Shown: positions 588 through 27,872, counted from the stretch's first letter. The stretch: DNA of 64,000 nucleotides from Gammaproteobacteria bacterium (GCA_034522055.1 JAXHLS010000002.1:3119549-3183548), one strand, 5' to 3'. The notes: generated from the letters alone by a model not told the origin. Program-made: numbers and translations.

Positions 588-1435
588 TGTCTCAACGGCC
601 CCTCTTCATCTACCCGATTCCGGCACTCTTGTCACCGGTTGCTCGCGGCCGCCCGCCTGCCGGCTCAGCGACTGATTGGCCTACCAATCAATCCTTCGCC
701 AGATATGCGCGGGTTTTTACAGCCAGCTACACCGCATGGTGGATTTTATCCTAGACGGATTAAATCATTTCCCTACGATGCATTGGGTGGACTCATCAAG
801 TACGCAGGGCAGCTCGCGGGCCTTCGGCAGGGAACGCAGAAGGACAGGCCGACGGTGATCATCTGATGGCGGGTGAGCCGGGCTCGGGCGTGGTACGGTG
901 ACGGGCCGGCCGTGGCTGGCTCGAGCCGGCGTGCGGCGGAGCGCTCAGGCCTCGGTGCGGGCGTTCGGCTCGCGGCCGAAGCGCCTGTCCCGGTCGCGGG
1001 GGATGTAAAAGAGCTCCTTGCGGTAGAGGGGGCCAGCCGAGCCCCGGAAGTCGATCTCGCAGTCGAGCCAATCTATGCGTCCCCAGCTGGACTGCAGGAC
1101 CTCGAAGGTGTGCAAATCGCTGCCTTTGGCGAAGCCGTAGCCTGGGCTCATGCTCCGTAGCATGAAATCCTCGTTGGGCTCGAGGCCCGCCACCGGGCAT
1201 TGCCAAGGCCTCGTCGTAGGTAAGGTCGAAATACGCATTGCCGGCAAAGGCCAGGTGGTAGCGCGTATCCTGGACGATGGCGGTCGCGCTGCCGATATTC
1301 CTGATGGTGATATGGAAGACCTTCGGCCCGACTTTGACAGTTTCTAGGCACATTTCGGCTTCAATGGTGTCAACCACGCGGGTTTGCGGGCCGTTGGGCG
1401 GCAAAACCCTAGTCACATGGATCTTTGAGTTTTCT

Positions 1436-2843
1436 GCCTCGTCAGAAAAATTCGTGGGCGGTTTCCGGGACAGGTAATGCTCCAAGCGCATGATATAAAG
1501 CGATTTCTGCCGCATGATAAGTCCTGAAGCCATATGCTTTTCTGGTGGTCAGTTTCGCTTTGTTATTGAAACCTTCGACAATGCCGCTCGAAAACTGCTT
1601 TTTTGCCCGGAACCAGTTCAGCAGCAGGGGCCGATGGTTTCTCAGCATGCGGGCCACCTTCTTCATCGGCTTAATCTTGGAACGCATCGTTTTCGTACAC
1701 CACTTATCCAGGAACTCACCGGCCCAATAGGGCGACTGATACGACCAGAAGAGCTGAAACTCCTCTTTGAGCAGATAGCTTCTGACCGACTTCAAATTGT
1801 ACTGCAGCAGATCCGCCAGTTTGGTCTCCTGTTTCTCCGTCAGATTCTCCGGACGCTTGAGCAGCAGCCAGCGGGTCTTCGTCAGTACCGGATCGTAGCC
1901 TCTTTTCTTCAGCTCCTTGGCCTCCCCGGCCCGCACCTCATCGATCGCTTTACTCAAGTGCGCCATGATGTGGAACCGGTCCAGGATGTGGAGTGCACCT
2001 CCCGCCTTCTTGGCGATCACCCTCAGGTAGGGCTTCCACATATCGCTGCAGATATAGCGCAAATCGGCGGTTCGTTCCTTGCCAAGCCACCGGAAGAATC
2101 CCAACAAAGTTTTGACCTTCCGTTTCTTGCCGATCCACAGCAACCGTTTACAGCCAACGTCGATCTGGTAAACCAGCGTGAGGTACTTGTGGCCCCTCTG
2201 CCATTGGATCTCATCGATACCAATAGCTTTAATGCCCGACAGGTCTCTATGTTCCCGGCCCCAGGTGACAGCCATCTCGACCGAGCAGAACACATGGTCC
2301 CAACTGGTGCGAAAGGCTTCAGCGACTTCCTTCCAGCTCAGGCGTTTGGCCCAGCTCGCCAGAAACCAGGCATAGGCCTCGGTCAGGCGATGTTTGCCTT
2401 CGGCCCAAGGCATCCGCTCCACCACGATGCCACAGCTTGGACAGTCGACGCGGCGTGGCGCATAGAGAAAAAACACCTTAATACCCCACACCGGAATAAA
2501 CTCAAATCTTCGAACCGGCAATGTGTCGTAACCCGGCCTGCGCCGGCCGCACCTCGAGCACTCCGGCCGCCCATTACCGCGAGGGTGGAGTTCGGCCTCG
2601 ATTGTCGGCACCTCCGTGCCATCTACCCAACGGATGGCGCCGTACACAAAAGATTTGAATTTCTGGACTCGATTAAGGATAGTCTTGACTTGCATCCTCG
2701 CTCCTTTTTCTGATTGACGGTTGGTCGTACTTCCATCATCTCAGAGTTAGGGAGCAGGATGCGCTTCCCCTAATAAAATCTAAATTTGCATCCCTGGAGT
2801 GCTAGTTATCTACGTTTTTACCCACAAATTTTCCTGAAGAGCC
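1436..2843 (-). mobile_element. ISL3-family insertion sequence, complete
   Basis: The right end, read inward, starts GGCTCTTCAGGAAAAT; the left end starts GCCTCGTCAGAAAAAT at 1436, giving imperfect inverted repeats of about 23 bp. Both sides carry the 8-bp direct repeat AGTTTTCT (1428-1435 and 2844-2851), the duplication size expected for ISL3. Total length is 1408 bp with one transposase gene on the minus strand. This is the youngest insertion of the nested set. Confidence 0.93.
1442..2695 (-). CDS. ISL3-family transposase
   Basis: The 417-residue DDE transposase moves the surrounding 1.4-kb element. It has an N-terminal zinc-binding region (ECSRCGRR near residue 45 and CPSCG near 85), then helix-turn-helix-like sequence, then the catalytic core with GIDEIQWQRG (about residue 160), a central ICSDMWKPYL-like segment with DRFH, and a C-terminal SSGIVEGFNNKAK motif typical of ISL3 transposases. 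Length is normal for the family. The stop lies inside the left inverted repeat. The frame is intact, so the element may be active. Confidence 0.95.
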   Translation of the reverse strand: MQVKTILNRVQKFKSFVYGAIRWVDGTEVPTIEAELHPRGNGRPECSRCGRRRPGYDTLPVRRFEFIPVWGIKVFFLYAPRRVDCPSCGIVVERMPWAEGKHRLTEAYAWFLASWAKRLSWKEVAEAFRTSWDHVFCSVEMAVTWGREHRDLSGIKAIGIDEIQWQRGHKYLTLVYQIDVGCKRLLWIGKKRKVKTLLGFFRWLGKERTADLRYICSDMWKPYLRVIAKKAGGALHILDRFHIMAHLSKAIDEVRAGEAKELKKRGYDPVLTKTRWLLLKRPENLTEKQETKLADLLQYNLKSVRSYLLKEEFQLFWSYQSPYWAGEFLDKWCTKTMRSKIKPMKKVARMLRNHRPLLLNWFRAKKQFSSGIVEGFNNKAKLTTRKAYGFRTYHAAEIALYHALGALPVPETAHEFF

Positions 2844-2876
2844 AGTTTTCTCACCTTCACGGCTAATCTGCCGTGT

Positions 2877-4559
2877 ATGTACCTTCGAGAGAGCAAACAG
2901 AAGCGGGCAGACGGCAGCGTCGTCTCCTACCTGCAGATCGCCGAGAACGTCTGGAACCCGAAGAAGCAGCGCTCACAGGCACGCATCGTCCACAACTGTG
3001 GACGCGGCGATGATCCTGAGGCGGTGGAGCGGCTCCGGCGGTTGGCCAAGAGCATCCTGCGCCGCTGCTCACCGCAGGAGATCATCGCCGACAGTCCCCA
3101 GTGGTCGCTGGTCTGCGCATGGCCCTACGGGGATGTCTACGTCCTGGAGGCGATCTGGCGACGGCTTGGGCTTGACCAAGTGATCCGCCGCCAGACGGCC
3201 AAGCGGCGCTTCGGCTTCGACATGGAGCGGGCGCTGTTCGCGATGGTCGCCAATCGGGCGTGCGCGCCAGCCTCCAAGCTCTACTGCCACGATCAGTGGC
3301 TCAAGGAGGACACCTACATCGCGGGTACCCGAGGGTTGGAACTCCAGCATCTCTACCGCGCGATGGACTTCCTCGAAGCGAACAAGGAGGCGCTTGAACG
3401 GGCGATCTACTTCCAGGTAGCGGATCTGCTCAACCTCGACGTGGACATCGTCTTCTACGACACGACCTCACTACACTTCGAGATAGACGAAGAGGACGAG
3501 GGCGACGAGCAGGGAAGGGTCCAGGGTAGCATCACCGCAGGCCAGCAGGACTATCCCGCACTGCGCAAGCGCGGTCACAGCAAGAACGGTCGTGGGGATG
3601 CCCCACAGCTCGTTGTCGGGCTGGCGGTGACCCGCGATGGCTTTCCGGTACGCCACTGGGTCTTTCCCGGCAACACGGTGGACGTGACGACGGTGAAGCA
3701 GGTCAAGGCGGATCTCAAGGGGTGGCAGCTGAGCCGCTGTCTGTTCGTCGGCGATGCCGGCATGGTCTCCCAGGACAACCTCGGCACCCTTTCCCGAGGA
3801 GGTGGCAAGTACCTGTTGGCGATGCCGATGAAGCGTGGCGACGAGGTGACCGAAGCGGTGCTCGGTCGACCGGGCCGCTACCGGAAGGTGGCGCAGAACC
3901 TGGAGGTCAAGGAGGTTGTGGTCGGTGACGGCGAACGGCGTCGGCGCTATGCGGTGTGCTTCAACCCGCAGGAGGCGCGGCGCCAGAAGCGCCATCGCGA
4001 ACGGCTGATCCAGGAACTCGAAGCGGAACTGGCCAGCCTGTCGGAGCAACGCGAGAGCTACAGCAAGCGGGCCTGCGCATTACGCACCAGTCGACGCTAC
4101 GGACGGCTGCTGAGGGAGACCCGCAGCGGACTGGCCATCGACCGTAACGCGATCAAGGCACTCGAACGGTGCGACGGCAAGTTCGTCGTGCACAGCAACG
4201 ACGACACCCTGAGCGCCGAGGACATGGCGCTGGGTTACAAGCAACAGCAACGTGTGGAAGAGGCGTGGCGGACACTGAAGAGCGGGTTGAAGATGCGTCC
4301 GGTCTATCACTGGGCACCCCATCGCATTCACGCCCACATCGCCATCACCGTTCTCTCACTGCTCCTCGAGCGGGTGATCGAACACGCCAGCGAGGATACG
4401 TGGCGCAACATCCGCGACGATCTGAAACAGATCCAATTGGCGCAATTGTTCAGCCCCAACGGGACCGTCTGGCAAGTCACCGATCCGCGTCCGGACGCGT
4501 CTAAGCGACTGAAACGATTGAAACTCCCTCCCCCGAAGCCCATGTTGGATCTGGCCTAA
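2877..4559 (+). CDS. IS1634-family (IS4-group) transposase
   Basis: The 560-residue DDE transposase begins MYLRESKQKRADGSVV, a typical IS1634 N-terminus. Catalytic features visible are FYDTTSLHFE (first Asp), VGDAGMVSQDN (second Asp) and a late YKQQQRVEEAWRTLKS segment carrying the Glu of the YREK-like motif. Length is normal for the family and there is no internal stop. The nearby ISL3 insertion upstream probably changes its expression; transcription would have to start from the last 25 bp or from the ISL3 end. Confidence 0.93.
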   Translation: MYLRESKQKRADGSVVSYLQIAENVWNPKKQRSQARIVHNCGRGDDPEAVERLRRLAKSILRRCSPQEIIADSPQWSLVCAWPYGDVYVLEAIWRRLGLDQVIRRQTAKRRFGFDMERALFAMVANRACAPASKLYCHDQWLKEDTYIAGTRGLELQHLYRAMDFLEANKEALERAIYFQVADLLNLDVDIVFYDTTSLHFEIDEEDEGDEQGRVQGSITAGQQDYPALRKRGHSKNGRGDAPQLVVGLAVTRDGFPVRHWVFPGNTVDVTTVKQVKADLKGWQLSRCLFVGDAGMVSQDNLGTLSRGGGKYLLAMPMKRGDEVTEAVLGRPGRYRKVAQNLEVKEVVVGDGERRRRYAVCFNPQEARRQKRHRERLIQELEAELASLSEQRESYSKRACALRTSRRYGRLLRETRSGLAIDRNAIKALERCDGKFVVHSNDDTLSAEDMALGYKQQQRVEEAWRTLKSGLKMRPVYHWAPHRIHAHIAITVLSLLLERVIEHASEDTWRNIRDDLKQIQLAQLFSPNGTVWQVTDPRPDASKRLKRLKLPPPKPMLDLA

Positions 4560-5091: not shown

Positions 5092-5724
5092 TCATGGATT
5101 CCGCGCCGCCCCACAATGCCGGCAGGTCGTGCGGCGGCGGCCTCTGCGCAGACCCTCTGTTCGTCCGCCACAGTGTCGACAGCGAAAGCGTTGATGCAGT
5201 TGACAGCTGGGGCATCTCGCATCGGTTTCCTCGACAGGCGTAATGAACTCGGTCGAACAGCGCGGGCATTGCCGCTCGTGCCAGAGTTGCATCTCCAGGA
5301 GTCGCGGGACGAAGGCGACCTGGGAGATCCCGAGGAGATCCTCCTGGATAACCTGCCGGTAGATATCGTAGAGGTCGATCAGGATGCGGGCTGGCCGGTT
5401 GTTGGTATTGCGCAGGTGTTTGTGAATACGCCACACGATAGCCGCGTGGAGCATGCGCCGCTCGCTTTTCAGAAACCAGGCGTCGGTGAACGGGAACTGC
5501 CCGGGCGGCGAGGGTCGACCGTGAATCTGCCGGTACAGTCGATTCGCGGTCTTCTTGTCCAGCTTCGTCAACTGACAGACCAACCCTGTCCGGGCCCCCA
5601 ATTCCATGAGCCGGGTCGCATCGAGGACCGCCACCGTCTTCTTCCAGGCCGGATCGGCGGCGAGTCGGGCGGTGATGATCCGTTCCGGACCGTGGGCAAC
5701 GATGGAATCCATTCCTGTGCGCAT
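5092..5724 (-). CDS. FlhC-like transcriptional activator, first copy
   Basis: This is the partner of the FlhD-like protein encoded just upstream. Together such pairs form a heteromeric DNA-binding activator, as FlhDC does for flagella and BisDC/SetDC do for ICE transfer genes. The C-terminal half carries four cysteine pairs (CPRC, CPSC, CRHC, CRHC), matching the FlhC zinc site. The central FPFTDAWFLKSERRMLHAAIVW segment matches the FlhC fold. I chose ATG 5724 (MRTGMDSIV) because longer N-termini overlap the upstream gene and are low-complexity Arg. There are no flagellar genes in the window, so an ICE regulatory role is inferred. It is clearly homologous to the second copy at 9366. Confidence 0.8.
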   Translation of the reverse strand: MRTGMDSIVAHGPERIITARLAADPAWKKTVAVLDATRLMELGARTGLVCQLTKLDKKTANRLYRQIHGRPSPPGQFPFTDAWFLKSERRMLHAAIVWRIHKHLRNTNNRPARILIDLYDIYRQVIQEDLLGISQVAFVPRLLEMQLWHERQCPRCSTEFITPVEETDARCPSCQLHQRFRCRHCGGRTEGLRRGRRRTTCRHCGAARNP

Positions 5725-5756
5725 GAGGGTCGCTGGCTGCCGGGAATGCGTATGGG

Positions 5757-6053
5757 CTAGTCGGCTGTGAGCAGGCCGGCGTGCTCGAGGACTGCTTGGA
5801 GTTCGTCGCCGTCGTCGTCGGTCAACGCTGTGAGCAGTCGCTCCCACCACCAGTCGTCCAGCCTGGGGGACACCAGGGGCGGTTTAAACGCCGCGACGCG
5901 AGAAAGGCCGGCCGGTGTGACCTCCGCGAGGCGCGCGGCGAGCTCCTCGGGGATACCCAGGAGCAAGGCAGAGCCGTGCAGGTTTTCCCGTGCCAGATCG
6001 CGCGCCTGGATCAAATACTCCAGATTCAGGCGTGAGAAATCGTACTCTGTCAT
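5757..6053 (-). CDS. FlhD-like transcriptional activator subunit, first copy
   Basis: The 98-residue protein (MTEYDFSRLNLEYLIQARDL) aligns end to end with the second FlhD-like protein at 9058: shared LNLxYLIQARDLA, a central helix region, a WWWxRL segment and a C-terminal LxHAGLL. Gene order is FlhD then FlhC, as in bisDC operons, with a 32-bp gap. It is transcribed divergently from the XRE regulator at 6190; the 136-bp spacer holds a palindrome. BisDC of ICEclc is the known master activator of transfer competence; function here is by homology only. Confidence 0.75.
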   Translation of the reverse strand: MTEYDFSRLNLEYLIQARDLARENLHGSALLLGIPEELAARLAEVTPAGLSRVAAFKPPLVSPRLDDWWWERLLTALTDDDGDELQAVLEHAGLLTAD

Positions 6054-6159
6054 CTGCCAATTCCCTGTCGTTTTTCTCGACTAGCGCTGGACCCACTACA
6101 ATCCTAGGCAGGCCCTGTTGGATCGGGGCCGGCCGGGCGTTGCGATAGGATCTCAAAGT

Positions 6160-6174
6160 TTGTAATAATTACAA
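6160..6174. promoter_or_regulatory. Palindrome TTGTAATAATTACAA in a divergent promoter
   Basis: This 15-bp perfect odd palindrome sits between the divergent FlhD-like gene and the XRE regulator gene. Its half-site TGTAATAAT is the same as in the palindromes at 13601-13686, 20251 and 20480. It is a likely operator for the XRE protein or for a shared element regulator. The surrounding 6054-6189 spacer is AT-rich compared with the rest of the region. Confidence 0.6.
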
Positions 6175-6189
6175 GGTAGATAAGATACT

Positions 6190-6564
6190 TTGAGCGGGAG
6201 GAGCAAACAGATACTAGGGGATTCGCCCATCGGGTTGGTTCTAAGGGCGCTACGGGTTACTCGGGGCGTGTCGTTGGAGGAGACGGCACGTTTGGCGGAC
6301 GTATCGGCGGCGAACCTGTCGCGCACCGAGCGGGGCTTGCCGGGAGGTGTTCATCCACGCCATCTCGAGCGCATTTCCGGCGTGTTCGGCACCAGCGTCG
6401 TGGCCCTTTACGCGCTGGCCGAAGCGGTCGCTGAGAAACCCGAGCTATTGGACGATCCGGCAGAGGTCGCCGCACTCACCGACCGACTCGCCGAGTTGCA
6501 GCGGGCTTACCTTCGGGCGTCTCCGGATCGACGCTGCGAAGTGGACCGGATTCTGGGCCTTTGA
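6190..6564 (+). CDS. XRE-family helix-turn-helix regulator
   Basis: The protein of about 124 residues has a Cro/CI-type HTH (GLVLRALRVTRGVSLEETAR, then VSAANLSRTERG) in its first half and a helical C-terminus. It begins a three-gene operon with the HDOD and response-regulator genes. The start is uncertain: the open frame allows TTG at 6190, but a strong ribosome site GGGAGGAG at 6196-6203 lies downstream of it and points to the rare codon ATA at 6211, just before the conserved SPIGLVL region; TTG at 6235 is another option. The divergent palindrome at 6160 is a natural candidate operator. Confidence 0.75.
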   Translation: MSGRSKQILGDSPIGLVLRALRVTRGVSLEETARLADVSAANLSRTERGLPGGVHPRHLERISGVFGTSVVALYALAEAVAEKPELLDDPAEVAALTDRLAELQRAYLRASPDRRCEVDRILGL

Positions 6565-6575
6565 CGGAGCGCGGC

Positions 6576-7361
6576 ATGGACATTGGCCAGCTCGTCTGTA
6601 GTACTCGGCTTCCGTCACCGGCGCCCGTGGTGCTCAAGCTCTTCGACGAGATCGAGAGCGGTGGCGCAGACGATATCGCCCGCATCATCGAATCGGATCC
6701 GGCGATAACGGCACGCCTCTTGCGGCTCGCGAACTCGGCCTTCTACGTCAAGACGCCGGTGGGTTCGGTCCGTGAGGCGGTGGTGAGGGTTGGGACCCTG
6801 GACGTCGCGGGCCTGGTGCTCTCAACCGAGGTGGTGCGGATCTTCAGGGGGATCTCTGAAAGGGCGTTCAGCATGGAGACATTCTGGGACCACAGCTTGT
6901 TGACCGCTTGTTACGCCAATGCCCTGATGCGGCCGGGATTGCAGCAAAAGGCGGCGCCGATCTGGGTGTGCGGCCTGCTACACGATATCGGCAAGTTGTG
7001 CCTGGTACGCCAGGCGCCCAATGCCTACCGGACGGTGCTCGACCGGGTCGAGGCCGGGACCCCACTGCTGGAGGCCGAGAATGAGATCCTGGGTGTCACC
7101 CACGCAAAGATTGGTGGCGTGCTGCTTCAGGAGTGGCGGCTCCCGGCGGTGTTGGCGGCCTGTGCAGAGGGACATCACGCGGGTTATGACGGGCTCGATT
7201 CGCCCAGTAGCGTAGTGGCGGCCGCCAACGAAGTGGCGAATCAGGAAAAGGAGGTGAAAGACCTCCCGGGCAGGACGGAAGCAGAGGCTGAGCAGGTGAC
7301 TGCGGGTGCTCGGCGGCTCTACGACGGATACCGGCAGTTATTTTCGGAGTACTGGATATGA
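6576..7361 (+). CDS. HDOD-domain signalling protein
   Basis: An HDOD domain fills most of the 261 residues: LPSPAPVVLKLFDEI, IIESDPAITARLLRLANSA, and a retained CGLLHDIGKL core. HDOD proteins are HD-superfamily members that usually lack enzyme activity and act as signalling scaffolds. I chose ATG 6576 because GGAGC lies 6-7 nt upstream; TTG 6561 is also open. The gene follows the XRE gene closely and its stop overlaps the response-regulator start (ATGA), so the three are co-transcribed and probably act together. No histidine kinase lies nearby. Confidence 0.85.
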   Translation: MDIGQLVCSTRLPSPAPVVLKLFDEIESGGADDIARIIESDPAITARLLRLANSAFYVKTPVGSVREAVVRVGTLDVAGLVLSTEVVRIFRGISERAFSMETFWDHSLLTACYANALMRPGLQQKAAPIWVCGLLHDIGKLCLVRQAPNAYRTVLDRVEAGTPLLEAENEILGVTHAKIGGVLLQEWRLPAVLAACAEGHHAGYDGLDSPSSVVAAANEVANQEKEVKDLPGRTEAEAEQVTAGARRLYDGYRQLFSEYWI

Positions 7362-8032
7362 TCGAGATCCTAGTGGCAGACGACCAGGGGATGATGCGCA
7401 CCCTGCTCAGCGGGGTGTGCAATAACGCCCAGGACATGACGGTCGTCGGTGCGGCCAAGACGGGGGAGGAGGCCATCAAGATGGCGCATGCGATGAAGCC
7501 GGACATCGCATTGGTCGATATCAAGCTGCCCGGCATTTCGGGTCTCGAGGTCACGCGCCGCCTGTCGCGCCAGCTCCCGGAGATACGGATCATCGTACTC
7601 ACCGGACTGGTAGAACGCGGCTTCGCCATACGCGCCGTCGCGGCAGGCGCGAAAGGGTTTCTGACCAAGCAAGCCGTTGTTCATGAGCTCGTGCGGACCA
7701 TTCGAGCGGTCTACGCCGGCGGCTGTTACGTGGATGCCGGCCTGGCACAACAGATCGCCCTGGACTACGTCCATCGGGAGGATGCCGCCGTCGATTCATT
7801 GTCCGATCGGGAAATGGACGTCCTGTTACTGATGCTCCGCGGTCAGACAGCCGCCGAGATCTCCGACCGACTCGCCCTGGCAGCGAAGACGGTAGAGCAC
7901 CATCGGCGCAGTATCCGGCGTAAGCTCAATGTCGCGACCGATGCACAGCTCGGTATCGTCGCGGCACGTTACGGTTTGGATCCGATGGTCGAGGGGGGCG
8001 GCGGATCGATGGGCTTGGGGGATCGAGGTTGA
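7358..8032 (+). CDS. LuxR/NarL-type response regulator
   Basis: The receiver domain (residues 1-115) has the acidic pair D8/D9, phospho-acceptor D54 in ALVDIKLPG, T82 and K104, all the expected residues. A LuxR-type HTH follows near 145-200 (LSDREMDVLLLMLRG, then KTVEHHRRSIRRKL). The start overlaps the HDOD stop by four bases. No cognate sensor kinase is encoded in the window, so phosphorylation must come from elsewhere or be unnecessary. The position beside the FlhDC-like genes suggests a role in ICE transfer decisions. Confidence 0.9.
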   Translation: MIEILVADDQGMMRTLLSGVCNNAQDMTVVGAAKTGEEAIKMAHAMKPDIALVDIKLPGISGLEVTRRLSRQLPEIRIIVLTGLVERGFAIRAVAAGAKGFLTKQAVVHELVRTIRAVYAGGCYVDAGLAQQIALDYVHREDAAVDSLSDREMDVLLLMLRGQTAAEISDRLALAAKTVEHHRRSIRRKLNVATDAQLGIVAARYGLDPMVEGGGGSMGLGDRG

Positions 8033-8718
8033 GCGCGACTCGGCGATTCCGGCATTCCACGATACGGTTGAAGTATGCTCCCCTATTCGGTGTTGGCGGG
8101 ATCCCTGGCCGACGTCGACTCATCCACCCCCGAAGCGCGCCCTGAGCCTCAAGGAGAGCTGATCCCTGGCCCCCGGTCATGGCGGGCTCCTGGACCGAGG
8201 GGACTCGACGTCCCACACCACGCCGCTGTTTCTCCACGACATTCGCCATCTCCACGACGGAGATGCATACCGTTCATGGTGGTCATCGGCCAGAACGTCC
8301 GCAAACCCGAGTGACAGCCTCGAAACGACCACGCAGGCATCGTCGCCCATCGCAACAGCCATCTCGAACCCCTGGTCCCGTTGACGCCCTTTCCCCAACG
8401 GTCGCCGGGCAAGCGGCGTCCCATCGCGGCTGCGGATAATTTCCGGGCCAACCGCGGGCGCGCGTGATGTCCCTCTAGATCCAGAGGCCAGGCCAGGCTC
8501 ACCCAAGGGCGCGGCCCTGTTCTTCCCTTCCCTTTGCGGCGTGTTCCCGGGCGAACCCCTGGTGTGGTCGGGCGAGCCCAGCACGTAAATGAGGCGCCGG
8601 CTTATCGCTTGGCGCATCGACCCTTGACGGCATGCGGCCGAAAAAGGCTGGAAAGCCCCTCGTTCAAGTGCCGCTTTCGGACAGGTTAAACCCCCAGCCA
8701 CGGACTAGGATCGAGACC
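8033..8718. other. Gene-free stretch between regulatory units
   Basis: About 690 bp with no ORF that looks coding in composition or homology, no tRNA, and no clear repeat. Open frames on the minus strand here are Arg/Gly-rich and unconvincing. It separates the XRE-HDOD-response regulator operon from the second regulatory block. Confidence 0.4.
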
Positions 8719-9003
8719 ATGAAAGGACACACCAGTACCCAGGACGGACCAGGGATCGATATTGGTACCTACCATTACCTGCTGCAGCACTTCGGGCCAC
8801 TCATGAAGGTGGAGCACGTGGCCACGGTCCTGCACACCACGCCCAAGGGACTGCGCATGGCCCTGGATCGCCGCTCGCATCCCTTCACCGAGGCGCTGGC
8901 CAACGCGCGGCGCCGCCACGGGCGCCGGGTCTACTTCGATTCGCGGCTCGTCGCCGAACTCATCAACAACGTCCACGGCCCGATGGCCGAAGGCGATCGG
9001 TGA
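8719..9003 (+). CDS. Small HTH-like ICE/plasmid-related protein
   Basis: The 94-residue product (MKGHTSTQDGPGIDIGTYHY) has a predicted helix-turn-helix-like core (LMKVEHVATVLHTTPKGLRM) followed by RRxHGRRVYFD, similar to small plasmid-related DNA-binding proteins upstream of ParB in ICEs of this class. The longer frame starting at 8632 has no ribosome site and a poorly conserved-looking extension, so I took ATG 8719. It lies 54 bp upstream of the second FlhD-like gene, probably in the same operon. Confidence 0.6.
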   Translation: MKGHTSTQDGPGIDIGTYHYLLQHFGPLMKVEHVATVLHTTPKGLRMALDRRSHPFTEALANARRRHGRRVYFDSRLVAELINNVHGPMAEGDR

Positions 9004-9057
9004 GCCGGTGCGTCGCGCGCACGGGCCAGCCGCCACCACAGCGAAGAATAGCGAGCC

Positions 9058-9351
9058 ATGAATACGGACTTTTCGAAACTCAATCTTCAATACCTCATCC
9101 AGGCCCGCGATCTCGCGCATCAGGCACCCCAGTGCGCCGGTGCGTTGATGGGGGTGCCGATCCAGTGGGTGGAACAGATCGGGGCTCTGAAGCCCGACGA
9201 TCTGGCCCGCTCCATCGACATCCGGATCCCACTCCTCGTACCCCGCCGCGAGTCCTGGTGGTGGACGCGGCTGTTCCAGGCCCTGCAGTCGGGCAGGACC
9301 GCCGAGGTGGACGCGGTGCTGGCTCACGCCGGCCTGTTGTCCGCACCCTGA
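9058..9351 (+). CDS. FlhD-like (BisD/SetD-type) activator subunit, second copy
   Basis: The 97-residue protein aligns with the first copy at 5757 (LNLQYLIQARDLA, WWWTRL, LAHAGLL). It sits immediately upstream of its FlhC-like partner and of parB, the arrangement known for the bisDC region of ICEclc-like elements. It is expected to form the transfer-gene activator with the protein at 9366. No separate promoter is evident; the spacing to its neighbours suggests one operon running into parB. Confidence 0.8.
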   Translation: MNTDFSKLNLQYLIQARDLAHQAPQCAGALMGVPIQWVEQIGALKPDDLARSIDIRIPLLVPRRESWWWTRLFQALQSGRTAEVDAVLAHAGLLSAP

Positions 9352-9365
9352 GGGGTGGGACGGCG

Positions 9366-10025
9366 ATGGCCCTGGAGCCCCTGGCGATGGCAGCCCCGGC
9401 AGGGCCGGCGCTCACGCCCACCGAAAGCCGCTGCCGGATCGAGGCCGAGGCGCTCAAGCTGATCCGCTGCGGCGCCCGCGCCGGCCTGGTGCAGCAACTA
9501 ACCGGCCTGTCCCCGGCCCGGATTGGCCGAATGTATCGTGAGGTACATCATCGCCATTCGCCGCCCGGGCTCGCACCCTACACGGACACCTGGCTGATGA
9601 AGTCCCTGATGCGGCGACTGCACGCCAGCATCGTATGGCGCTATCACCACGCCCTGGCGGACCATGCCCTCGCCCCGGCGGCCCATCTCATCGCCCTCGA
9701 TACCCTCTACCACCAGGCCGTGCGCGAGCCCCTGCTCGACATCGCGCGGATCCACAGCATCCCGGTGCTGGTCCAGAGCGGGATCTGGCAGGTGCAGCAT
9801 TGTGTCGAGTGCGGCGTCCGATCCGTCGGCCCGGCCGGTGAGCCCCAAGGCCTGTGCCCCGCCTGCCTGCTCTATCGGCGCCATCGCTGCCCGACTTGCG
9901 GCAGGCCATTGCCCGGCCATCTCACCGGCCGAATGCCCTCCCGGTGTCATGACTGTGGCAAGGCCACTGTCCAAAACGGGCCGGCGAGACAGCGGCGCGC
10001 TGGACCGGCGAGGAGACGGCCATGA
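9366..10025 (+). CDS. FlhC-like (BisC/SetC-type) activator, second copy
   Basis: The 219-residue protein has a FlhC-like N-terminal helical region, then TDTWLMKSLMRRLHASIVWR, then four cysteine pairs (CVEC, CPAC, CPTC, CHDC) that would bind zinc, and a basic tail. ATG 9366 follows GAGGGGTGGG at a fair spacing; a longer frame from 9000 only overlaps the FlhD-like gene. Its last four bases overlap the parB start (ATGA). By homology with BisDC and SetDC it should help switch on transfer genes. Confidence 0.82.
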   Translation: MALEPLAMAAPAGPALTPTESRCRIEAEALKLIRCGARAGLVQQLTGLSPARIGRMYREVHHRHSPPGLAPYTDTWLMKSLMRRLHASIVWRYHHALADHALAPAAHLIALDTLYHQAVREPLLDIARIHSIPVLVQSGIWQVQHCVECGVRSVGPAGEPQGLCPACLLYRRHRCPTCGRPLPGHLTGRMPSRCHDCGKATVQNGPARQRRAGPARRRP

Positions 10026-11701
10026 CCGACGGAGCCACGGGCGCCGGCCGGGATGGCACGGTAGCGGCGGCGGAGGAGGGGGCCACCCTGCTGGCGCTCG
10101 ATGTCCGTGAGATCCGGCGCTATGACCGGGATCCACGCCAGCAGCCCAACCCGGAGTATCCCCGCATCAAGGCCTCCATACGGGCCGAAGGCCTGGATCA
10201 GCCGCTGGTGGTGACCCGACGCCCCGGTGAATTCGACTACATGATCCATGGTGGCGGTAACACGCGACTGCGGATCCTGCTGGAGCTCTACGAGGAGACC
10301 GGCGAGGCGCGCTTTCGTGACATCACCTGCCTCTACCGGCCATGGACAGGGGAGACCGACGTCCTGCTGGCCCACCTGCGTGAAAACGATCTGCGGGGCC
10401 CGCTCAACTTCCTGGACAAGGCCCTGGCCGTGGACGAGGCGAAGCGCCTGATCGAAGCGGAAGCGGGTACGGGTGTGATTACCCAGGCCCAGTTGTCTGC
10501 GGCACTCAAGGATCGGGGCTACGGGCTGAGCCAGGGGCTGATCTCCCAGATGCAATACGCCGTCGAGCGGCTGCTGCCGCTGTTGCCGGCGGCGCTGCTG
10601 GCGGGCCTGGGCCGGCCCCAGGTCGAACGGATCCGCCAGCTGGAGCGTGCGGTCCGCGCCATCTGGATCGAGCGCGCGGTGGACACCGAGGCGGTGTTCG
10701 ACCAGACCTTCGGTGCCCTCTGCCGGCGCTATGACGGTGCGGACTGGGACATCGGCCACCTGCGCCGCGCCCTGGAGGCCGAGATCGCCGAGCAGGCGGA
10801 TGTGAGCATCCAGGCGGTGAGCATGATGCTGGAGATCCGGCTCGCCGGGCGCCACGGCGAGGCGGGGCCGGCAGCGCAAACCGAAACCGCGGCCGCTCCG
10901 GTTGCCGTTACGTCGGGGCCGGCAGCGCAAACCGAAACCGCGGCCGCTCCGGTTGCCGTTACGTCGGGGCCGGCAGCGCAAACCGAAACCGAAACCGCGG
11001 CCGCTCCGGTTGCCGTTACGTCGGAGCCGGCCCAGACATCGATGACGCGCGAAGCCCCATCGGACACCCCACGCCGGACGCCGGCGCAGAATATGACCGT
11101 GACCCCCGCAACCACCCCCGCTGGCGGGGCGGGGACACCGGCGACCAGCGACGGCGACGGTCCCCCGGAGGAAGAGACTCCGCCGTCCGAGGTCGCCCAG
11201 ATTACCGGGACGGACAATCCGGAAGCCGCCCCCGGCCCCGGAGACATCAAGTCCCTGCGGGCCCGGGCCTGGACCCTGGCCAGCCTGCTGGCCCAACGCA
11301 ATGGTCTCAGCGAACTGATTCAGCCGCTCCCCGGTCGAGGGCTGGGGTTCCTGCTCACGGACGTGCCCGATCCGGCCCTCGTGGATCAGCTGGACGAGGA
11401 TACCCTGGCCCAGATCTCCATGGTCTGGTGGTATCTCGCGGCGGTGGCGGAGATGACGGTGGCCCCCGTGGACGAGATCCTCCCCAACCTGACCGAGAGC
11501 TCCGTCCTGCGCCGTGCCCTCGAAGATCAGGACGCCGGGTTGTTGTTCTCCAGCGTGTGGACGCTGGATCCCGGCCACATGGGGTTCAGGCTGTGGCGCC
11601 GCCTCGACGGGCGGACCTGGCGAGACCTGGTGGCGCTCATGGAGACCTACCGGGATCTGCACCAGGCGGCAGAGGCCGCCGGGGTGTCGCTCTGGCCATG
11701 A
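10022..11701 (+). CDS. parB: ParB-family partition protein, PFGI-1 class ICE (TIGR03764-like)
   Basis: The 559-residue protein has an N-terminal ParB/Srx-like domain (LLALDVREIRRYDRDPRQQ, then IRAEGLDQPLVVTRR and HGGGNTRLRIL) with the LRENDLRGPLNFLDKA segment typical of ICE ParB proteins, an HTH region, a Pro/Ala/Thr-rich linker with a tandem repeat (residues about 281-335), and a conserved C-terminal domain (SLRARAWTLASLLAQ). It is longer than chromosomal ParB, as usual for this ICE class. No ParA gene is in the window; the nearest motor-type partner is the ParM-like protein at 15159. It overlaps its neighbours on both sides, so it is operonic. Confidence 0.9.
   Translation: MTDGATGAGRDGTVAAAEEGATLLALDVREIRRYDRDPRQQPNPEYPRIKASIRAEGLDQPLVVTRRPGEFDYMIHGGGNTRLRILLELYEETGEARFRDITCLYRPWTGETDVLLAHLRENDLRGPLNFLDKALAVDEAKRLIEAEAGTGVITQAQLSAALKDRGYGLSQGLISQMQYAVERLLPLLPAALLAGLGRPQVERIRQLERAVRAIWIERAVDTEAVFDQTFGALCRRYDGADWDIGHLRRALEAEIAEQADVSIQAVSMMLEIRLAGRHGEAGPAAQTETAAAPVAVTSGPAAQTETAAAPVAVTSGPAAQTETETAAAPVAVTSEPAQTSMTREAPSDTPRRTPAQNMTVTPATTPAGGAGTPATSDGDGPPEEETPPSEVAQITGTDNPEAAPGPGDIKSLRARAWTLASLLAQRNGLSELIQPLPGRGLGFLLTDVPDPALVDQLDEDTLAQISMVWWYLAAVAEMTVAPVDEILPNLTESSVLRRALEDQDAGLLFSSVWTLDPGHMGFRLWRRLDGRTWRDLVALMETYRDLHQAAEAAGVSLWP
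10864..11026 (+). repeat. Three in-frame 51/57-bp tandem repeats in the parB linker
   Basis: The unit encodes GPAAQTETAAAPVAVTS. Two 51-bp copies are virtually identical and the third has an extra six bases adding Thr-Glu. The near identity in DNA suggests recent slippage expansion, so the linker length probably varies between strains. Confidence 0.9.
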
Positions 11702-12333
11702 GCACCGCCACCGGGACCAAGGAATCGGAACTGGTGCGGGCGGTCCTGCTGTACGCCATCCGTTGCCTGGCGGAGGGCGATCAGCACGCCCTGCGCGACA
11801 TGAACTTCGGGCCCGACGAGGTGGCCGCCCTGCGCGACGTCAACCTGGCCGATCTCTACCGGATAGGCGCCCTGCAGGCCCACTGTCTCGACATCCGGCT
11901 CAACCGCGAGATCTACTGGCCGCTGCTGGGCCACCTGCGCCGGGAACGGGAACTGGAGGATCTGCAACGGGACTTCATCCAGGCCGACGCCCCGCTGGAG
12001 ATGATGCGCCGACTCTTCGGCGTGGGCTCGCGGGAGTACACGCGGCTGCGCCGCGTCCTCACCGCCGAACCCGCCACCGGCAGGCCGCCCGAGCCCGACG
12101 AGGCCACCTCCCACGCCCTGTGGCACGCCTGGTGCCAGCGCACGGCCCCCGATCCGACGCAGCCCCTGGCCCCGGAAGCCTATCTCGAACTCAGCCGGGA
12201 GACGGGGGCATCGCTTCGCGCCGTGTGGGTGCTCACGCAGCGCTGGGCCGAGTATGGTGACTTGTCGCCGGCCGGTACCGCCCCGGTAACGATGGAAGAC
12301 GCAGACGCCAACCGGTCACCGGCCGGACGCTGA
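11698..12333 (+). CDS. DUF2857 family protein
   Basis: The 211-residue protein starts at ATG 11698, overlapping the parB stop. The sequence (AVLLYAIRCLAEGDQHALRDMNFGP, with a later LFGVGSREYTRLRR) matches the DUF2857 proteins found between ParB and the STY4528 replication protein in ICEs of this class. Biochemical function is unknown; conserved linkage implies a role in maintenance or replication. The longer frame from 11428 overlaps parB and is not credible. Confidence 0.8.
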   Translation: MSTATGTKESELVRAVLLYAIRCLAEGDQHALRDMNFGPDEVAALRDVNLADLYRIGALQAHCLDIRLNREIYWPLLGHLRRERELEDLQRDFIQADAPLEMMRRLFGVGSREYTRLRRVLTAEPATGRPPEPDEATSHALWHAWCQRTAPDPTQPLAPEAYLELSRETGASLRAVWVLTQRWAEYGDLSPAGTAPVTMEDADANRSPAGR

Positions 12334-12342: not shown

Positions 12343-13581
12343 ATGGGCCGGCACGAGGGGGATGTCCGACCGGCCACCCGTGCCCTCGATACCCTGATCC
12401 GCGAGACCGTCTCGCAGATCGGCCGGCAGACCACCGACGGGACCGCGGATGCTCTGCTGTTCCTCGGCAACCGGCACCAGGCCTTTCCGCTGCTGCTGGT
12501 GCAGGATCCCATCCTGGAGCCGGTGGACAAGGTGGTGTGGATGGTGATCTGCCAGCAGGGCCGGGCCATCCCTACCGGCACCGCGTTTCCCCGCTACGAC
12601 GCCATCGCCCGCCACGCCAACATCGCCTCCACCTCCACGGTGTCCCGCGCCATCGCCATCCTGCGGGTGACCCGCTGGCTGTCCCTGTGCGCGCGAGTCA
12701 GGGACGACGGTGGCCGCTACCGGGGCAACGTCTACGCCCTGCACGACGAGCCCCTGCCCCTGGCCGACGCACTGCACCTCGATGCCGAGTACATGGCCTT
12801 CCTGAGGGCGGCGGGCCGGCACCACCACGCCCGGGTCCGCAAGGTGGCAGCGGGCGTGTTGGCCTCCCTCGACGAGGAGATTGCCACCGGCGTCGACGTG
12901 CTGGCACCCACCAACGGGATGGAGCGCCGCCTCGAGGCCGCGCAAGCGGTGCACCAGGCCGGCGCGCGACGTTACTTCAGCTTCAGCGCCGCCGTCCTGG
13001 CCCGGCTCACCAACCAGGACCAAAAATCAAAGGCGGTTGGGGACCGCCTTCGAATTTTGAGCCCTCAAATATCGAAGTCGGTTCGTAGTAGTAGTAGTTA
13101 TATAAATAAAACAACAACAACAACAACAACGGATCCTCCGGCGGCATCGAATGCCGACGCCGGGTGCGCGCCGTTGATCTATCCGCACCGGCTCTCCGCC
13201 AACCAGCGCGACATCGCCGCCCGCTACCTCGAGCGCGTCGATGCGGGCCAGCGCCAGGCCGTGCTCGACGAGCTCGAAGGGCGCTTTCGCGCCGAGCGGC
13301 AGGGCGCCAGGCCGATCTACGACGAACTGCGCTATCTCCATCACCTCTGCAGCCGGGCCCACAGCGGCGGCTTTCAACCCAATCTCGGGATCAAGGTCCA
13401 GGAGGGCCGCGAACGGGACGCCGCGGCGGCGGAGCACCAGCGCCAGGAGGCCGCGGCCCGGGCACGGGATCATCGGCGGCGTCTGGAGCAGGTACGGGCG
13501 GGTGGGGAGAGCCCCCTGGCCGAAGCCCGCAGGCTTCTGGGGATGCCGCCACGGGGTGCCAAGCCGGATCGCCGATCCTGA
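12343..13581 (+). CDS. STY4528-family ICE/pathogenicity-island replication protein
   Basis: This 412-residue protein is the presumed replication factor of the element. The N-terminal part carries a winged-helix-like region (YDAIARHANIASTSTVSRAIAIL). The centre is a striking low-complexity linker encoding runs of Ser and Thr (about residues 247-265), and the C-terminus is helical and charged (AAAAEHQRQEAAARARD). Gene order ParB, DUF2857, STY4528 is the standard one. The linker DNA is far more AT-rich than its surroundings and has a perfect hairpin just upstream (see 13030-13130). Family role in autonomous replication of the excised form is known only by association. Confidence 0.85.
   Translation: MGRHEGDVRPATRALDTLIRETVSQIGRQTTDGTADALLFLGNRHQAFPLLLVQDPILEPVDKVVWMVICQQGRAIPTGTAFPRYDAIARHANIASTSTVSRAIAILRVTRWLSLCARVRDDGGRYRGNVYALHDEPLPLADALHLDAEYMAFLRAAGRHHHARVRKVAAGVLASLDEEIATGVDVLAPTNGMERRLEAAQAVHQAGARRYFSFSAAVLARLTNQDQKSKAVGDRLRILSPQISKSVRSSSSYINKTTTTTTTDPPAASNADAGCAPLIYPHRLSANQRDIAARYLERVDAGQRQAVLDELEGRFRAERQGARPIYDELRYLHHLCSRAHSGGFQPNLGIKVQEGRERDAAAAEHQRQEAAARARDHRRRLEQVRAGGESPLAEARRLLGMPPRGAKPDRRS
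13030..13130. other. Candidate replication origin inside the STY4528 gene
   Basis: A perfect 8-bp stem (AAGGCGGT at 13030-13037, ACCGCCTT at 13043-13050, loop TGGGG) is followed by GTA trinucleotide repeats (about 13086-13098), an AT tract TATATAAATAAAA, and CAA repeats to about 13130. The host sequence is otherwise GC-rich. The encoded protein here is a disordered Ser/Thr linker, so selection appears to act on the DNA. Hairpin plus AT-rich unwinding tract within a replication gene is typical of origins; this assignment is inference. Confidence 0.4.
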
Positions 13582-13600: not shown

Positions 13601-13686
13601 ATTATTACAGTGTAATAATTTGGCCGCCGTCGGATTATTACAGTGTAATAATTTACCCGGTGTCGGATTATTACAGTGTAATAATT
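13601..13686. repeat. Three ATTATTACAGTGTAATAAT palindromes at exact 33-bp spacing
   Basis: Copies start at 13601, 13634 and 13667, each preceded by GTCGG. The 33-bp period is three helical turns, so a protein could bind all copies on one DNA face. The site lies 20 bp after the STY4528 stop and upstream of the PFL_4669 gene. Related copies are at 20251 and 20480, and a half-site relative is at 6160. It is suggestive of iterons, a centromere or a cooperative operator. Confidence 0.85.
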
Positions 13687-13865: not shown

Positions 13866-14633
13866 GTGAATCAGCAGGCCACGGAGATCCCCCGAACAGA
13901 TCCCGACTCGAGTACCGTCCCGTCCCCGGAGGCCGATCGGCCCGGGGTCTTGCGCGGCGTGGTGACCCTCACCCTCGAGACCCGTCAGGCCCAGCGCCTG
14001 GTGAAGGGACGCCCCGGTACCCCGGACAAGCCGGCCATCATCGGACTCATCGGCTTCGCGAACCTGCTCCGCGCCATCTGGCACGGGGTGAGGGCCGACG
14101 ATCCCTATGCCGACTGGTGGCTGCTCAAGGTTCACGATGCCCTCGAAGCGGCCGATCAGGCGCTGGCCGCGGCCATCGAAACGGTGGAGACCGGCCTGAA
14201 TGCCTCGGCGGCCATCCGTGCGACGCCGGCGGCATCGGTACGCCCGACCCACACACCGCTGCGCTTCAGCAATCCCTACGCCTTCCGCGGCGCCCAGCTG
14301 GTGGCGGCCTACGATCGGCTCGTGCGCGCCGTGCTCACCGCCCGGCATATCGGCGTCATCACCGCTGACGACGGCGAGCGCACCGCGTCCCTGGGTGGTC
14401 GCGCGTTGCGCCGTGCCTTCCAGAGCCCCCTGGGATACCGCCCCACGGGGCTGATCCGTGCGGAGGTGCTGCAGGGGACCGCCCGCGCGACCGAGGCGCA
14501 GGCGCAGCTGGGCACGATCCCCGAGGCCGTGATCGCCGGTACCCGGCGGGCGCCCCACGGGCCGCTGCGGCCCATGCCGGAGAGCGCCACGTCTCGGCAC
14601 CTCGACCTCCACGCGCAAGCCCCGCGGTCGTGA
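13866..14633 (+). CDS. PFL_4669-family ICE protein (TIGR03761-like)
   Basis: The 255-residue protein has the conserved features of the family: VTLTLETRQAQRLVKGRPGT, AIIGLIGFANLLRAIW, DDPYADWWLLKVHDAL and LRFSNPYAFRGAQLVAAYDRL. It begins with GTG at 13866 after AGGAG. The family is found only in integrating elements, typically between replication and partition genes; function is unknown. No membrane segment is visible, so it is cytoplasmic. Confidence 0.88.
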   Translation: MNQQATEIPRTDPDSSTVPSPEADRPGVLRGVVTLTLETRQAQRLVKGRPGTPDKPAIIGLIGFANLLRAIWHGVRADDPYADWWLLKVHDALEAADQALAAAIETVETGLNASAAIRATPAASVRPTHTPLRFSNPYAFRGAQLVAAYDRLVRAVLTARHIGVITADDGERTASLGGRALRRAFQSPLGYRPTGLIRAEVLQGTARATEAQAQLGTIPEAVIAGTRRAPHGPLRPMPESATSRHLDLHAQAPRS

Positions 14634-18100: not shown

Positions 18101-18248
18101 TCAAGGTTTTCCCACCCGCGATTTCGCGCTCTTTGGTAGTGGCTGGGGTGCGTGGTAACTGTCGCCGTCGAGGACGACGCGATAGGTGTGGTGTCGCAGG
18201 CGGTCGAGCGTCGCGGTGCCAAGCGGCCGGTTGGGGAAGACCTCGCAC
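18101..18248 (-). pseudogene. IS21-family istB 3' remnant
   Basis: The minus strand encodes CEVFPNRPLGTATLDRLRHH and then TYRVVLDGDSYHAPQPL, ending at a stop at 18101. This looks like the C-terminus of the IS21 helper ATPase IstB. The rest of the gene is missing; the AbiE genes begin 55 bp away. Confidence 0.6.
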
Positions 18249-18263
18249 CATAAGATTGAAAAG

Positions 18264-18291
18264 TGTCAGAAAGTCGCATATCGTTCTGACA
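18264..18291. promoter_or_regulatory. Inverted repeat operator candidate of the abiE operon
   Basis: TGTCAGAA (18264-18271) and TTCTGACA (18284-18291) form a perfect 8-bp inverted repeat with a 12-bp spacer just before the AbiEi ribosome site (AGGAG). AbiEi antitoxins are known to repress their own operon by binding inverted repeats. Confidence 0.6.
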
Positions 18292-18302
18292 GGAGAACGA
18301 CC

Positions 18303-18896
18303 ATGCAGCGATTGAGCGAACAGATTCTGGCCTATGCGAGAAGGTTGCCCGAAGGGGAGCCCATCTCCGCCAAAAGCTTGCTCCACCTCGGGAAACGGGC
18401 CGCGGTGGACCAGGCCTTGTCGCGTTTGGCCGAACGGGGACAACTGATCCGGGCCGGTCGCGGCGTCTATCTTCGCCCGGTCGAGAGCCGGTTCGGCACG
18501 CGCGCGCCTTCTGTCGAGCAGGCGGTCGAAGCGTTTGGCAAGCAGCGGGGTGAAGTCATCGTCTCAGCCGGCGCGGCAGCGGCAAACGCGCTCGGCCTGA
18601 CCACGCAGGTGCCGATTCGATCGATCTTCCTGACATCGGGCCGGAGCCGCAGCATGAAACTGGGCAAACAGGTCGTCGAACTCCGGCACGCACCGCGCTG
18701 GCAACTGGCGCTGGCCGACAAGCCTGCGGGTGAAGCCGTTCGCGCTCTAGCGTGGCTCGGCCCGGAGCAGGCCGAACCGGCGCTCAAGAAGCTGAAGCGG
18801 ACCCTGCCGCCGAACGCGTTCGAAGAGTTGGTAGGGGCGGCTGCGCAGTTTCCCACCTGGCTCGCGCAGAGCGTGGGCAAGATCGCTCATGGTTGA
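18303..18896 (+). CDS. AbiEi-type antitoxin (DUF6088-like)
   Basis: The 197-residue protein has an N-terminal winged helix (LSEQILAYARRLPEGEPISAK, then LAERGQLIRAGRGVYLRP) and a C-terminal domain (VSAGAAAANALGLTTQVP) typical of AbiEi-like antitoxins. It should repress its own operon and counter the AbiEii-type nucleotidyltransferase encoded next. ATG 18303 follows AGGAG. The longer frame from 18186 reads through the IS21 remnant and is not credible. It overlaps the toxin gene by 8 bp. Confidence 0.88.
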   Translation: MQRLSEQILAYARRLPEGEPISAKSLLHLGKRAAVDQALSRLAERGQLIRAGRGVYLRPVESRFGTRAPSVEQAVEAFGKQRGEVIVSAGAAAANALGLTTQVPIRSIFLTSGRSRSMKLGKQVVELRHAPRWQLALADKPAGEAVRALAWLGPEQAEPALKKLKRTLPPNAFEELVGAAAQFPTWLAQSVGKIAHG

Positions 18897-19920
18897 TGCC
18901 TTCCTTGATCTATCACTCGCTGACCGCCGTGACGCTCTGGGCGTCGCAGCAGATCGCACGGGGCGCCCCGCACATCTTCTGGAAAAGGATGTCTGGGTCG
19001 TCTGGACGCTCGCCGTACTCTACGGATCACCTTTGGGCGAGCATCTGGTCTTCAAAGGCGGCACATCCTTGTCGAAAGGATATGGCGTTATCCGGAGATT
19101 CTCCGAAGACGTGGATCTCACCTATGACATTCGAGCGCTCGCGCCTGATCTGATTGGTGAGGACGGGGATGTGCTGCCGAAGACGCGCAGCGAGGAGCGG
19201 CGCTGGTCGAAGGCTGTGCGCTATCGTCTTCCGGTATGGGTAGCAGAGGAAGCCCAGCCCATTCTCGCGAAAGCTATTGCCGTTGAAGGCCTCGCGGCAA
19301 AAATACGCGTGGATGGCGACAGGCTCTTCGTCGAGTACGAGGCCGCGGCCACCGGGTCGGGCTATGTATCTCCCAATGTCATGCTCGAATTCGGTGCGCG
19401 CTCGACAGGTGAGCCGGCCAGTTTTCGGGATGTCGTTTGCGACGCGGCGGCTTCTCTTGACGGCGTGGAATTCCCGGTGACGCGACCGCGCGTGATGCAT
19501 GCCGAACGGACATTCTGGGAAAAGGCCACGGCGATCCACGTCTTCTGCTTGCAGGAACGGCTGCGCGGAGAGCGTTTCGCGCGTCACTGGCACGATATCG
19601 TGCGACTGGATGACGCCGGACTTGCGGAAGCGGCGTTCGCGGATCGCAATCTCGCGGGTACGGTCGCCACACACAAATCGATCTTCTTCGCCGAAAAGGC
19701 CGCCGACGACACAACGATCGACTATGGAGCCGCCGTCAACGGCCATCTCCACCTCGTTCCCGGTGGAAAGGCCATGGAGGCTCTCGAAAATGACTACGGG
19801 CGAATGGTGGATGACGGCTTGCTGCTTGAAGATGCCGAGCCGTTCGCAACATTGATGAGGCGGTGTACGGAATTGGCTGCGCGCGCAAATCGTGCGGCGA
19901 AGCTGGTGCAAGGAGAATAA
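18889..19920 (+). CDS. AbiEii/AbiGii-family nucleotidyltransferase toxin
   Basis: The 343-residue protein shows the nucleotidyltransferase core: LVFKGGTSLSKGY near residues 53-65 and EDVDLTYDI near 74-82 with the metal-binding Asp pair, plus the later ERTFWEKATAIHV helix typical of COG2253. AbiEii toxins modify nucleic-acid substrates (tRNA in studied cases) and form a type IV toxin-antitoxin and phage-abortive system with AbiEi. It is intact and translationally coupled to the antitoxin. Confidence 0.9.
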   Translation: MVDAFLDLSLADRRDALGVAADRTGRPAHLLEKDVWVVWTLAVLYGSPLGEHLVFKGGTSLSKGYGVIRRFSEDVDLTYDIRALAPDLIGEDGDVLPKTRSEERRWSKAVRYRLPVWVAEEAQPILAKAIAVEGLAAKIRVDGDRLFVEYEAAATGSGYVSPNVMLEFGARSTGEPASFRDVVCDAAASLDGVEFPVTRPRVMHAERTFWEKATAIHVFCLQERLRGERFARHWHDIVRLDDAGLAEAAFADRNLAGTVATHKSIFFAEKAADDTTIDYGAAVNGHLHLVPGGKAMEALENDYGRMVDDGLLLEDAEPFATLMRRCTELAARANRAAKLVQGE

Positions 19921-20211: not shown

Positions 20212-20710
20212 TACTGGGTGCCGATGCGCCCTGAAGTGCCGCCTCGGCAAATTATTACAGTGTAATAATCGCCCGCCGCCCGGCCGCTCGAAGCCGTCCC
20301 TCACTCCCAAATCAGCTGTCCACAGAGTCCACAGGCCTTGCCCGCCCTTGCGCGGTGCCTGTGGGCCCCTGTGGTCAGGTGAAGTCGCGCCGGAGGCCCA
20401 CGGGAGCCTCTCGATGCAGCCCCTGTGCCAGGCGTATGCCTACTGGGTGCCGATGCGCCCTGACGTGCCGCCTCGGCAGATTATTACACTGTAATAATCG
20501 CCGGCCGGTCGGCCGCTCGAAGCCGTCCCTCACTTCCGAATCAGCTGTCGACAGAGTCCACAGGCCTTGCCCGCCCTTGGCAAAGCGAGCCTTCTCACTC
20601 GCGTCGCCAAGGGCGGGACCGCGCTTGCGCGGTGCCTGTGGGCCCCTGTGGTCAGGTGAAGCCGCGCCGCAGGCCCGCGGGAGTCGCTCGATGCAGCCCC
20701 TGTGCTAGGC
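20212..20710. repeat. Noncoding tandem duplication, 229-bp unit
   Basis: Units start with TACTGGGTGCCGATGCGCC at 20212 and 20441. Each contains one ATTATTACANTGTAATAAT palindrome (20251-20269 and 20480-20498), then a shared CGGCCGCTCGAAGCCGTCCC, CAGAGTCCACAGGCCTTGCC and CCTGTGGGCCCCTGTGGTCA. The second unit carries an extra segment forming a 12-bp inverted repeat (CCCGCCCTTGGC and GCCAAGGGCGGG, about 20570-20617). No coding potential is seen. Confidence 0.8.
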
Positions 20711-20743
20711 GCATGCCTGGCGCCGGGGCTGCTCCGCCGCGAC

Positions 20744-20791
20744 GCCGCCCGTGTCACTAGCGAGCGTAAGCGGGGTAGTGACGCGGGCGGC
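20744..20791. repeat. Long inverted repeat, oriT-like
   Basis: GCCGCCCGTGTCACTA (20744-20759) and TAGTGACGCGGGCGGC (20776-20791) match in 15 of 16 positions around a 16-nt centre. It sits in the 1.4-kb gene-free region before the first transfer block. Such arms occur at transfer origins, but no relaxase gene is in the window to support that. Confidence 0.55.
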
Positions 20792-20874
20792 GCTACCGTA
20801 AACGGCGCGGCGTGAGGGCCGATTTTTCCGATGACACGCGAATGACGCGTTCCTAAACTGCCGCCCACGATCGA

Positions 20875-27763: not shown

Positions 27764-27872
27764 GGGTTGCACCCATCTTGATAACCAAAGCTGCGGGACG
27801 ACTTCGCAAGGATGCGATTATGTTGCCTTCGTCGGCAGGGAGGGTATCCAGTTCGGGTGGCGGCGCGCCGCG

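Follow-up and report, generated by a model that had tools for sequence, protein, structure and literature searches.

Two complete, homologous FlhDC-like activator pairs lie in one ICE within the window, the whole 64,000-nucleotide stretch from a Gammaproteobacteria bacterium analysed here, and the likely counterparts of a further activator set, BisDC, come right after the second pair. Pair 1 (5092-6053) is on the minus strand and pair 2 (9058-10025) on the plus strand with a spacing of ~3 kb, so that the original prediction of two complete pairs 3 kb apart in opposite orientation was borne out. In pair 1, the FlhC-like subunit is encoded by flhC1 (5092 to ~5724, open frame read from 5760) and the FlhD-like subunit by flhD1 (5757-6053, 98 aa). 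In pair 2, flhD2 (9058-9351, 97 aa) precedes flhC2 (9366-10025). The start of flhC2 was set at 9366 by the ribosome-binding site and by relatives; the longest open frame begins at 9000, upstream of the real gene. FlhC1 and FlhC2 matched Pfam FlhC (PF05280) at 68.2 bits (E=9.7e-19) and 53.8 bits (E=2.7e-14), respectively, both above the curated cut-off of 27, and FlhD1 matched Pfam FlhD (PF05247) at 36 bits (E=8.5e-9; curated cut-off, 27). FlhD2 gave no Pfam match of its own; it is FlhD-like by fold at weak E-values, as the best nine matches in a search of the PDB were all FlhD chains (probability 0.82-1.0, E 0.4-1.2). The predicted model of FlhC1 (pLDDT 80.6) best matched the FlhC chains solved from Cupriavidus necator and E. 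coli (8j56_C and 2avu_E; E 1e-8 to 5e-8). In both FlhC1 and FlhC2, the canonical FlhC zinc site keeps its four cysteines and is joined by a second ribbon, CxxC...CxxC, close to the C-terminus; all eight zinc-ligand cysteines are invariant among the aligned relatives.

The two pairs were then compared with each other. FlhC1 and FlhC2 were 41% identical over 173 aa (E=2e-46), and FlhD1 and FlhD2 were 45% identical over 93 aa (E=2e-28). Judged from these alignments, the resemblance is far beyond chance, yet far from identity. At identities of just 41-45%, an assembly artefact and a recent duplicate were both rejected as explanations of the pairs. A decayed first pair, or identical pairs due to assembly error, had been named in advance as grounds for abandoning the original prediction; both were looked at, and the pairs proved neither decayed nor identical.

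The genome (7 contigs, 98% complete) contained seven FlhC matches. In a second island elsewhere in the chromosome (L009), the whole module is repeated with both pairs intact, and the dN/dS values between the window and L009 were 0.36 for flhC1, 0.30 for flhD1, 0.25 for flhC2, and 0.04 for flhD2. A decayed remnant was thus rejected for the pairs of the window and L009, which are complete with dN/dS well below 1, but this description does hold for the broken pair 1 copies found in other contexts (L010 and L011). A copy with an internal deletion (L008) has lost flhD1, and island copies besides the window and L009 are partial. The parB (BisD) gene of L009 is split by a frameshift (L009:5883-7530). 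The broken pair 1 copies (L010:721-8301 and L011:8400-10671) adjoin an HTH_36 gene and a segment resembling window positions 20482-20907, and a P4-type integrase is encoded upstream of the copy in L010; these copies could be remnants of small mobilizable elements with their own FlhDC. Capture of a chromosomal flagellar FlhDC was rejected, as FlhC was absent from the four further genomes of the family to which the host belongs, and the flagellar clade does not include the window FlhCs (99/96).

Pair 2 belongs to an operon headed by a gene for an AlpA-like HTH protein (8632-9003, plus strand; start possibly 8668 or 8719). This protein has no Pfam match of its own, and was assigned by its 54-59% identity over ~68 aa with the AlpA-like genes that L040 and L041 have at this position; its dN/dS against the L009 copy was 0.04. 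Pair 2 is followed on the plus strand by a gene for a ParB-family protein (10022-11701; TIGR03764 ICE_PFGI_1_parB, 276.8 bits against a cut-off of 143.75), which has tandem repeats in its middle, and by a DUF2857 protein gene (~11656-12333, open frame from 11428; PF11198 E=1e-47, HMM match 11656-12300). Further along the same strand are an HTH_36-like gene (12343-13581), with a weak HTH_36 match and kept at the same place in relatives, and an AcaB-family gene (13866-14633; PF08900 AcaB E=4e-60). AcaB works with AcaDC in IncC plasmids. A 19-bp palindrome, ATTATTACA[G/C]TGTAATAAT, occurs in three tandem copies with a 33-bp period ahead of the AcaB gene (13604-13682) and twice more (20254 and 20483) near an inverted repeat (20743-20792) that is conserved in L010 and L011.

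The original prediction had put pair 2 in the classical place before parB, in the role of the ICEclc activator. This assignment did not stand, because in ICEclc, where the gene order is alpA-parA-shi-bisD-bisC-96323-95213-inrR, the ParB domain is part of BisD itself, and BisC belongs to DUF2857 (PMC7423338). It is the two genes right after pair 2 that have these features, pair 2 being FlhD/FlhC-like, and the HTH_36-like gene occupies the position of orf96323. By domain content and position, then, the predicted counterparts of BisD and BisC in the window are the ParB-family and DUF2857 proteins, not pair 2. Since the equivalents of BisDC are the next two genes, pair 2 is an added tier between alpA and bisD, upstream of BisDC, and the window holds FlhDC1, FlhDC2, and BisDC.

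Pair 1 is accompanied by a divergent cassette of three plus-strand genes: xre (6190-6564), encoding a Cro/C1-type HTH regulator (Pfam HTH_31 E=6e-9); a gene for an HDOD-domain signalling protein (6561-7361; Pfam HDOD E=2.3e-48); and a gene for a REC-LuxR response regulator resembling UvrY/SirA/GacA (7358-8032; Response_reg E=1.8e-24, GerE E=4e-16), whose 176 bits against the NCBIfam UvrY/SirA/GacA model are under that model's cut-off. In the ICE of L084, a contig assigned to Nitrospira defluvii, pair 1, xre, the HDOD gene, the response regulator gene, alpA, parB, and the DUF2857 gene are in the same order as in the window, without pair 2. The L084 proteins at these places were ~70% (FlhD1), 69% (XRE), 52% (HDOD protein), and 69% (response regulator) identical to those of the window, and the dN/dS of xre against the L009 copy was 0.11. 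Between flhD1 and xre lies a 17-bp sequence, TTGTAATAATTACAAGG (6160-6176), consisting of a perfect 15-bp palindrome plus GG. It is identical in L084, where the rest of the flhD1-xre spacer aligns poorly, and its palindromic core occurs once in the window, with 0.025 occurrences expected, even allowing one mismatch. We therefore regard it as a candidate operator to which XRE would bind. Because of the conserved synteny and this candidate operator, the XRE-HDOD-response-regulator cassette probably represses pair 1 and senses a signal.

The original prediction had also called for a phylogeny of the two pairs, and its FlhC part was run, with the long FlhC of L128 left out of the final tree. FlhC1 joined L084 (99/97), and FlhC2 formed a separate, long branch (100/98). 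In a tree that leaves out SetC, AcaC grouped with the flagellar outgroup, and its branch was very long. Short FlhC proteins formed a clade of their own (100/99), and both window FlhCs fell in the clade of long, double-ribbon proteins. A recent tandem duplication was discarded on the grouping of pair 1 with the L084 copy, although forced grouping of the two window FlhCs was disfavoured without outright rejection (p-AU 0.09). As FlhC1 groups with L084 and FlhC2 stands on its own branch, the pairs most likely represent old, separate lineages rather than a recent duplication. The double-zinc-ribbon FlhC clade, whose members come from gammaproteobacterial ICEs and from ICEs of Nitrospira- and Acidobacteriota-assigned contigs, is apparently undescribed.

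Next, the number of pairs in relatives was compared. In elements such as L085, L092, L093, and L132, the sole FlhDC pair is that of an alpA-flhD-flhC-(parA)-parB arrangement, and pair 2 occupies the place of this single pair. Elements of this kind were found in Sedimenticola, in further gammaproteobacterial genomes, and on a Polarisedimenticolaceae-assigned contig. Counts of single-pair elements are approximate, as the contigs of L086, L135, and L136 stop soon after the pair. The notion that two pairs are peculiar to the window element did not hold. At least seven further loci (L126-L131 and L133), in six genomes of the order of Sedimenticola, hold two pairs, one a short FlhDC and the other of the long double-ribbon type, and six of the seven contain a CI-like XRE gene and a REC-HD_5 gene. 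Motif comparison of the short-FlhDC spacers revealed no conserved operator comparable to TTGTAATAATTACAAGG in these elements. In L129 (7004-9278) and L133 (7688-9965), the long FlhDC pair directly adjoins a tyrosine integrase gene. On a core tree built from the ParB, DUF2857, and HTH_36-like proteins, at least three changes are needed to account for two-pair status. These results indicate that two-pair elements recur on at least three branches, and that a similar double switch would have been built independently at least two more times in related elements. Searches of genome contigs gave no match with FlhC2 alone and 11 loci with an alignment as query; searches of viral contigs found nothing, and all plasmid tblastn matches were below 60% identity and mostly annotated as ordinary FlhC.

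By its family-specific genes, the element itself is of the ICEclc/PFGI-1 type. Genes for TIGR03759, TraD, TIGR03749, TIGR03752, TraC, TIGR03755, and TraG of this family lie to the right of the control region, and TIGR03764, 03754, 03744, 03752, 03755, 03749, and 03759 all exceeded their cut-offs. A MOBH relaxase (TraI) was not found anywhere in the genome with PF07514 or TIGR03760. A tyrosine integrase gene is located ~37 kb past the window (L077:17325-18650), and the left end of the element is disrupted by insertion sequences. Because no MOBH relaxase was found, the window copy may not be transferring; selection on the pairs could have acted before the element became immobile. At the left edge, ISL3-family and DDE_Tnp_1 transposases are encoded (859-4559), and homology between the island copies ends at ~4858. 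The transfer genes are interrupted by a cargo block (27800-44100) encoding an apyrase, a diacylglycerol-kinase-like protein, and an APP1-type phosphatidate phosphatase. An AbiE-type toxin-antitoxin pair is encoded inside the element (18186-19920) and, close to the window's right end, a Shedu (SduA) defence protein (61537-62760).

How might the two pairs work together? Among the options raised in the original prediction, a layered switch is the best supported, and we favour it with middling confidence: signal-gated pair 1 would start the alpA operon, and pair 2 would amplify it ahead of BisDC. Pair 1 would be turned on by relief of XRE repression or by a two-component/HDOD signal, and FlhD1C1 would then activate the alpA promoter. 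FlhD2C2, as a product of the alpA operon, would sustain and amplify expression together with BisDC and the AcaB-family protein, and the outcome would be an all-or-none switching on of the transfer genes. Such roles have precedents: SetR represses setDC in SXT (PMC4542580), BisDC feeds back on the alpA promoter in ICEclc (PMC7423338), AcaDC, AcaB, and BisDC use positive feedback (PMC9927553; PMC7423338), and replication of SGI1 requires both AcaCD and SgaDC (PMC7826253). By analogy, pair 1 would be gated by the cassette and would in turn set off the alpA operon, which pair 2 and BisDC would keep active. The layered switch is further supported by the intactness of both pairs, conservation of the module in L009, the occurrence of each pair type as the sole FlhDC pair in some relative, the conservation of the divergent arrangement and palindrome with pair 1, and the recurrence of two-pair elements. 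The direction of regulation, with pair 1 upstream of pair 2 and both acting as activators rather than repressors, is inferred. Motif comparison upstream of alpA and in short-FlhDC spacers identified no binding site for either FlhDC complex, and the regions upstream of alpA in the window and L084 shared no 10-mer. More tentatively, three activator sets would act in series in one ICE, from signal-gated FlhDC through amplifying FlhDC to BisDC, and two-pair FlhDC control would have come together separately in several ICE lineages, a repeatedly used route from host signal to transfer commitment.

The main rival to the layered switch is parallel action, in which a left module like that of the Nitrospira ICE (pair 1 and its cassette) joined an alpA-flhDC module without any hierarchy, each pair answering to its own signals at its own or overlapping promoters. 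The two modules are each found alone in relatives, the FlhC lineages are separate, and SgaDC and AcaDC, which come from different elements, activate the same regulon (PMC9927553). However, control by two pairs that enclose HD and receiver-domain genes recurs, which suggests that the pairing is coordinated and not accidental, although parallel inputs fit this as well, and we consider such a merger possible but rather doubtful. Exchange of FlhD and FlhC subunits, giving hybrids with altered activity, is unlikely: the identities of 45% and 41% would allow it and a chimeric SgaD-AcaC has been proposed for SGI1/IncC (PMC9927553), but the lineages have long been separated. The literature found shows no hybrid.

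Two readings deny one pair an activating role. Paralogue pairs can antagonise each other, and the opposite orientation and separate control of pair 1 would permit it to restrain pair 2 as a dominant-negative or competing complex, as the original prediction had suggested. But the L084 ICE has no FlhDC pair besides its orthologue of pair 1, and pair 1 retains the FlhC fold and all eight zinc-ligand cysteines; with some relative relying on each pair type as its sole FlhDC pair, an antagonist role is very unlikely. That one pair is a non-functional leftover is barely credible, since both pairs are whole in the window and in L009 and their dN/dS values lie well under 1, even if pair 1 is broken in L010 and L011, flhD1 is gone from L008, and pair 2 is on a long branch.

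Large ICEs are known to control their transfer through a single FlhDC-like complex or through BisDC. With an element that combines two FlhDC pairs with BisDC, and with two-pair elements on at least three branches, it can be tested whether activator tiers stacked on one another underlie ICE bistability, and whether the two FlhDC complexes of such an element work serially, in parallel, or by forming hybrids. The openly licensed literature yielded no description of an element with two FlhDC pairs. The closest system is the BisR/AlpA/BisDC bistable switch of ICEclc (PMC7423338), which is of the same ICE family by TIGR models and shares with the window the order around alpA, the ParB (BisD), DUF2857 (BisC), orf96323-like, and AcaB-like genes. 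Unlike ICEclc, the window has two additional FlhDC pairs, with pair 1 and the XRE-HDOD-response-regulator cassette upstream of alpA, and lacks parA-shi between alpA and parB. The SetR-SetDC system of SXT/R391 and the Acr-AcaDC/AcaB system of IncC (PMC4542580, PMC9927553) have a regulatory module in which an FlhDC-like master activator is joined by a repressor gene, as predicted for the window, and the window too has an AcaB-family gene; however, each has been described with one pair, and the window FlhCs have an extra C-terminal zinc ribbon and form their own clade. SgaDC of SGI1 and AcaDC of IncC are two FlhDC-type complexes that meet in one cell and are both needed for a function (PMC7826253), but they are encoded on two different elements, whereas both window pairs are in one. 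The short-plus-long ICEs do resemble the window in having two FlhDC pairs in one ICEclc-type element; by contrast, one of their pairs belongs to the short FlhC clade, while the window has two pairs of the long double-ribbon clade.
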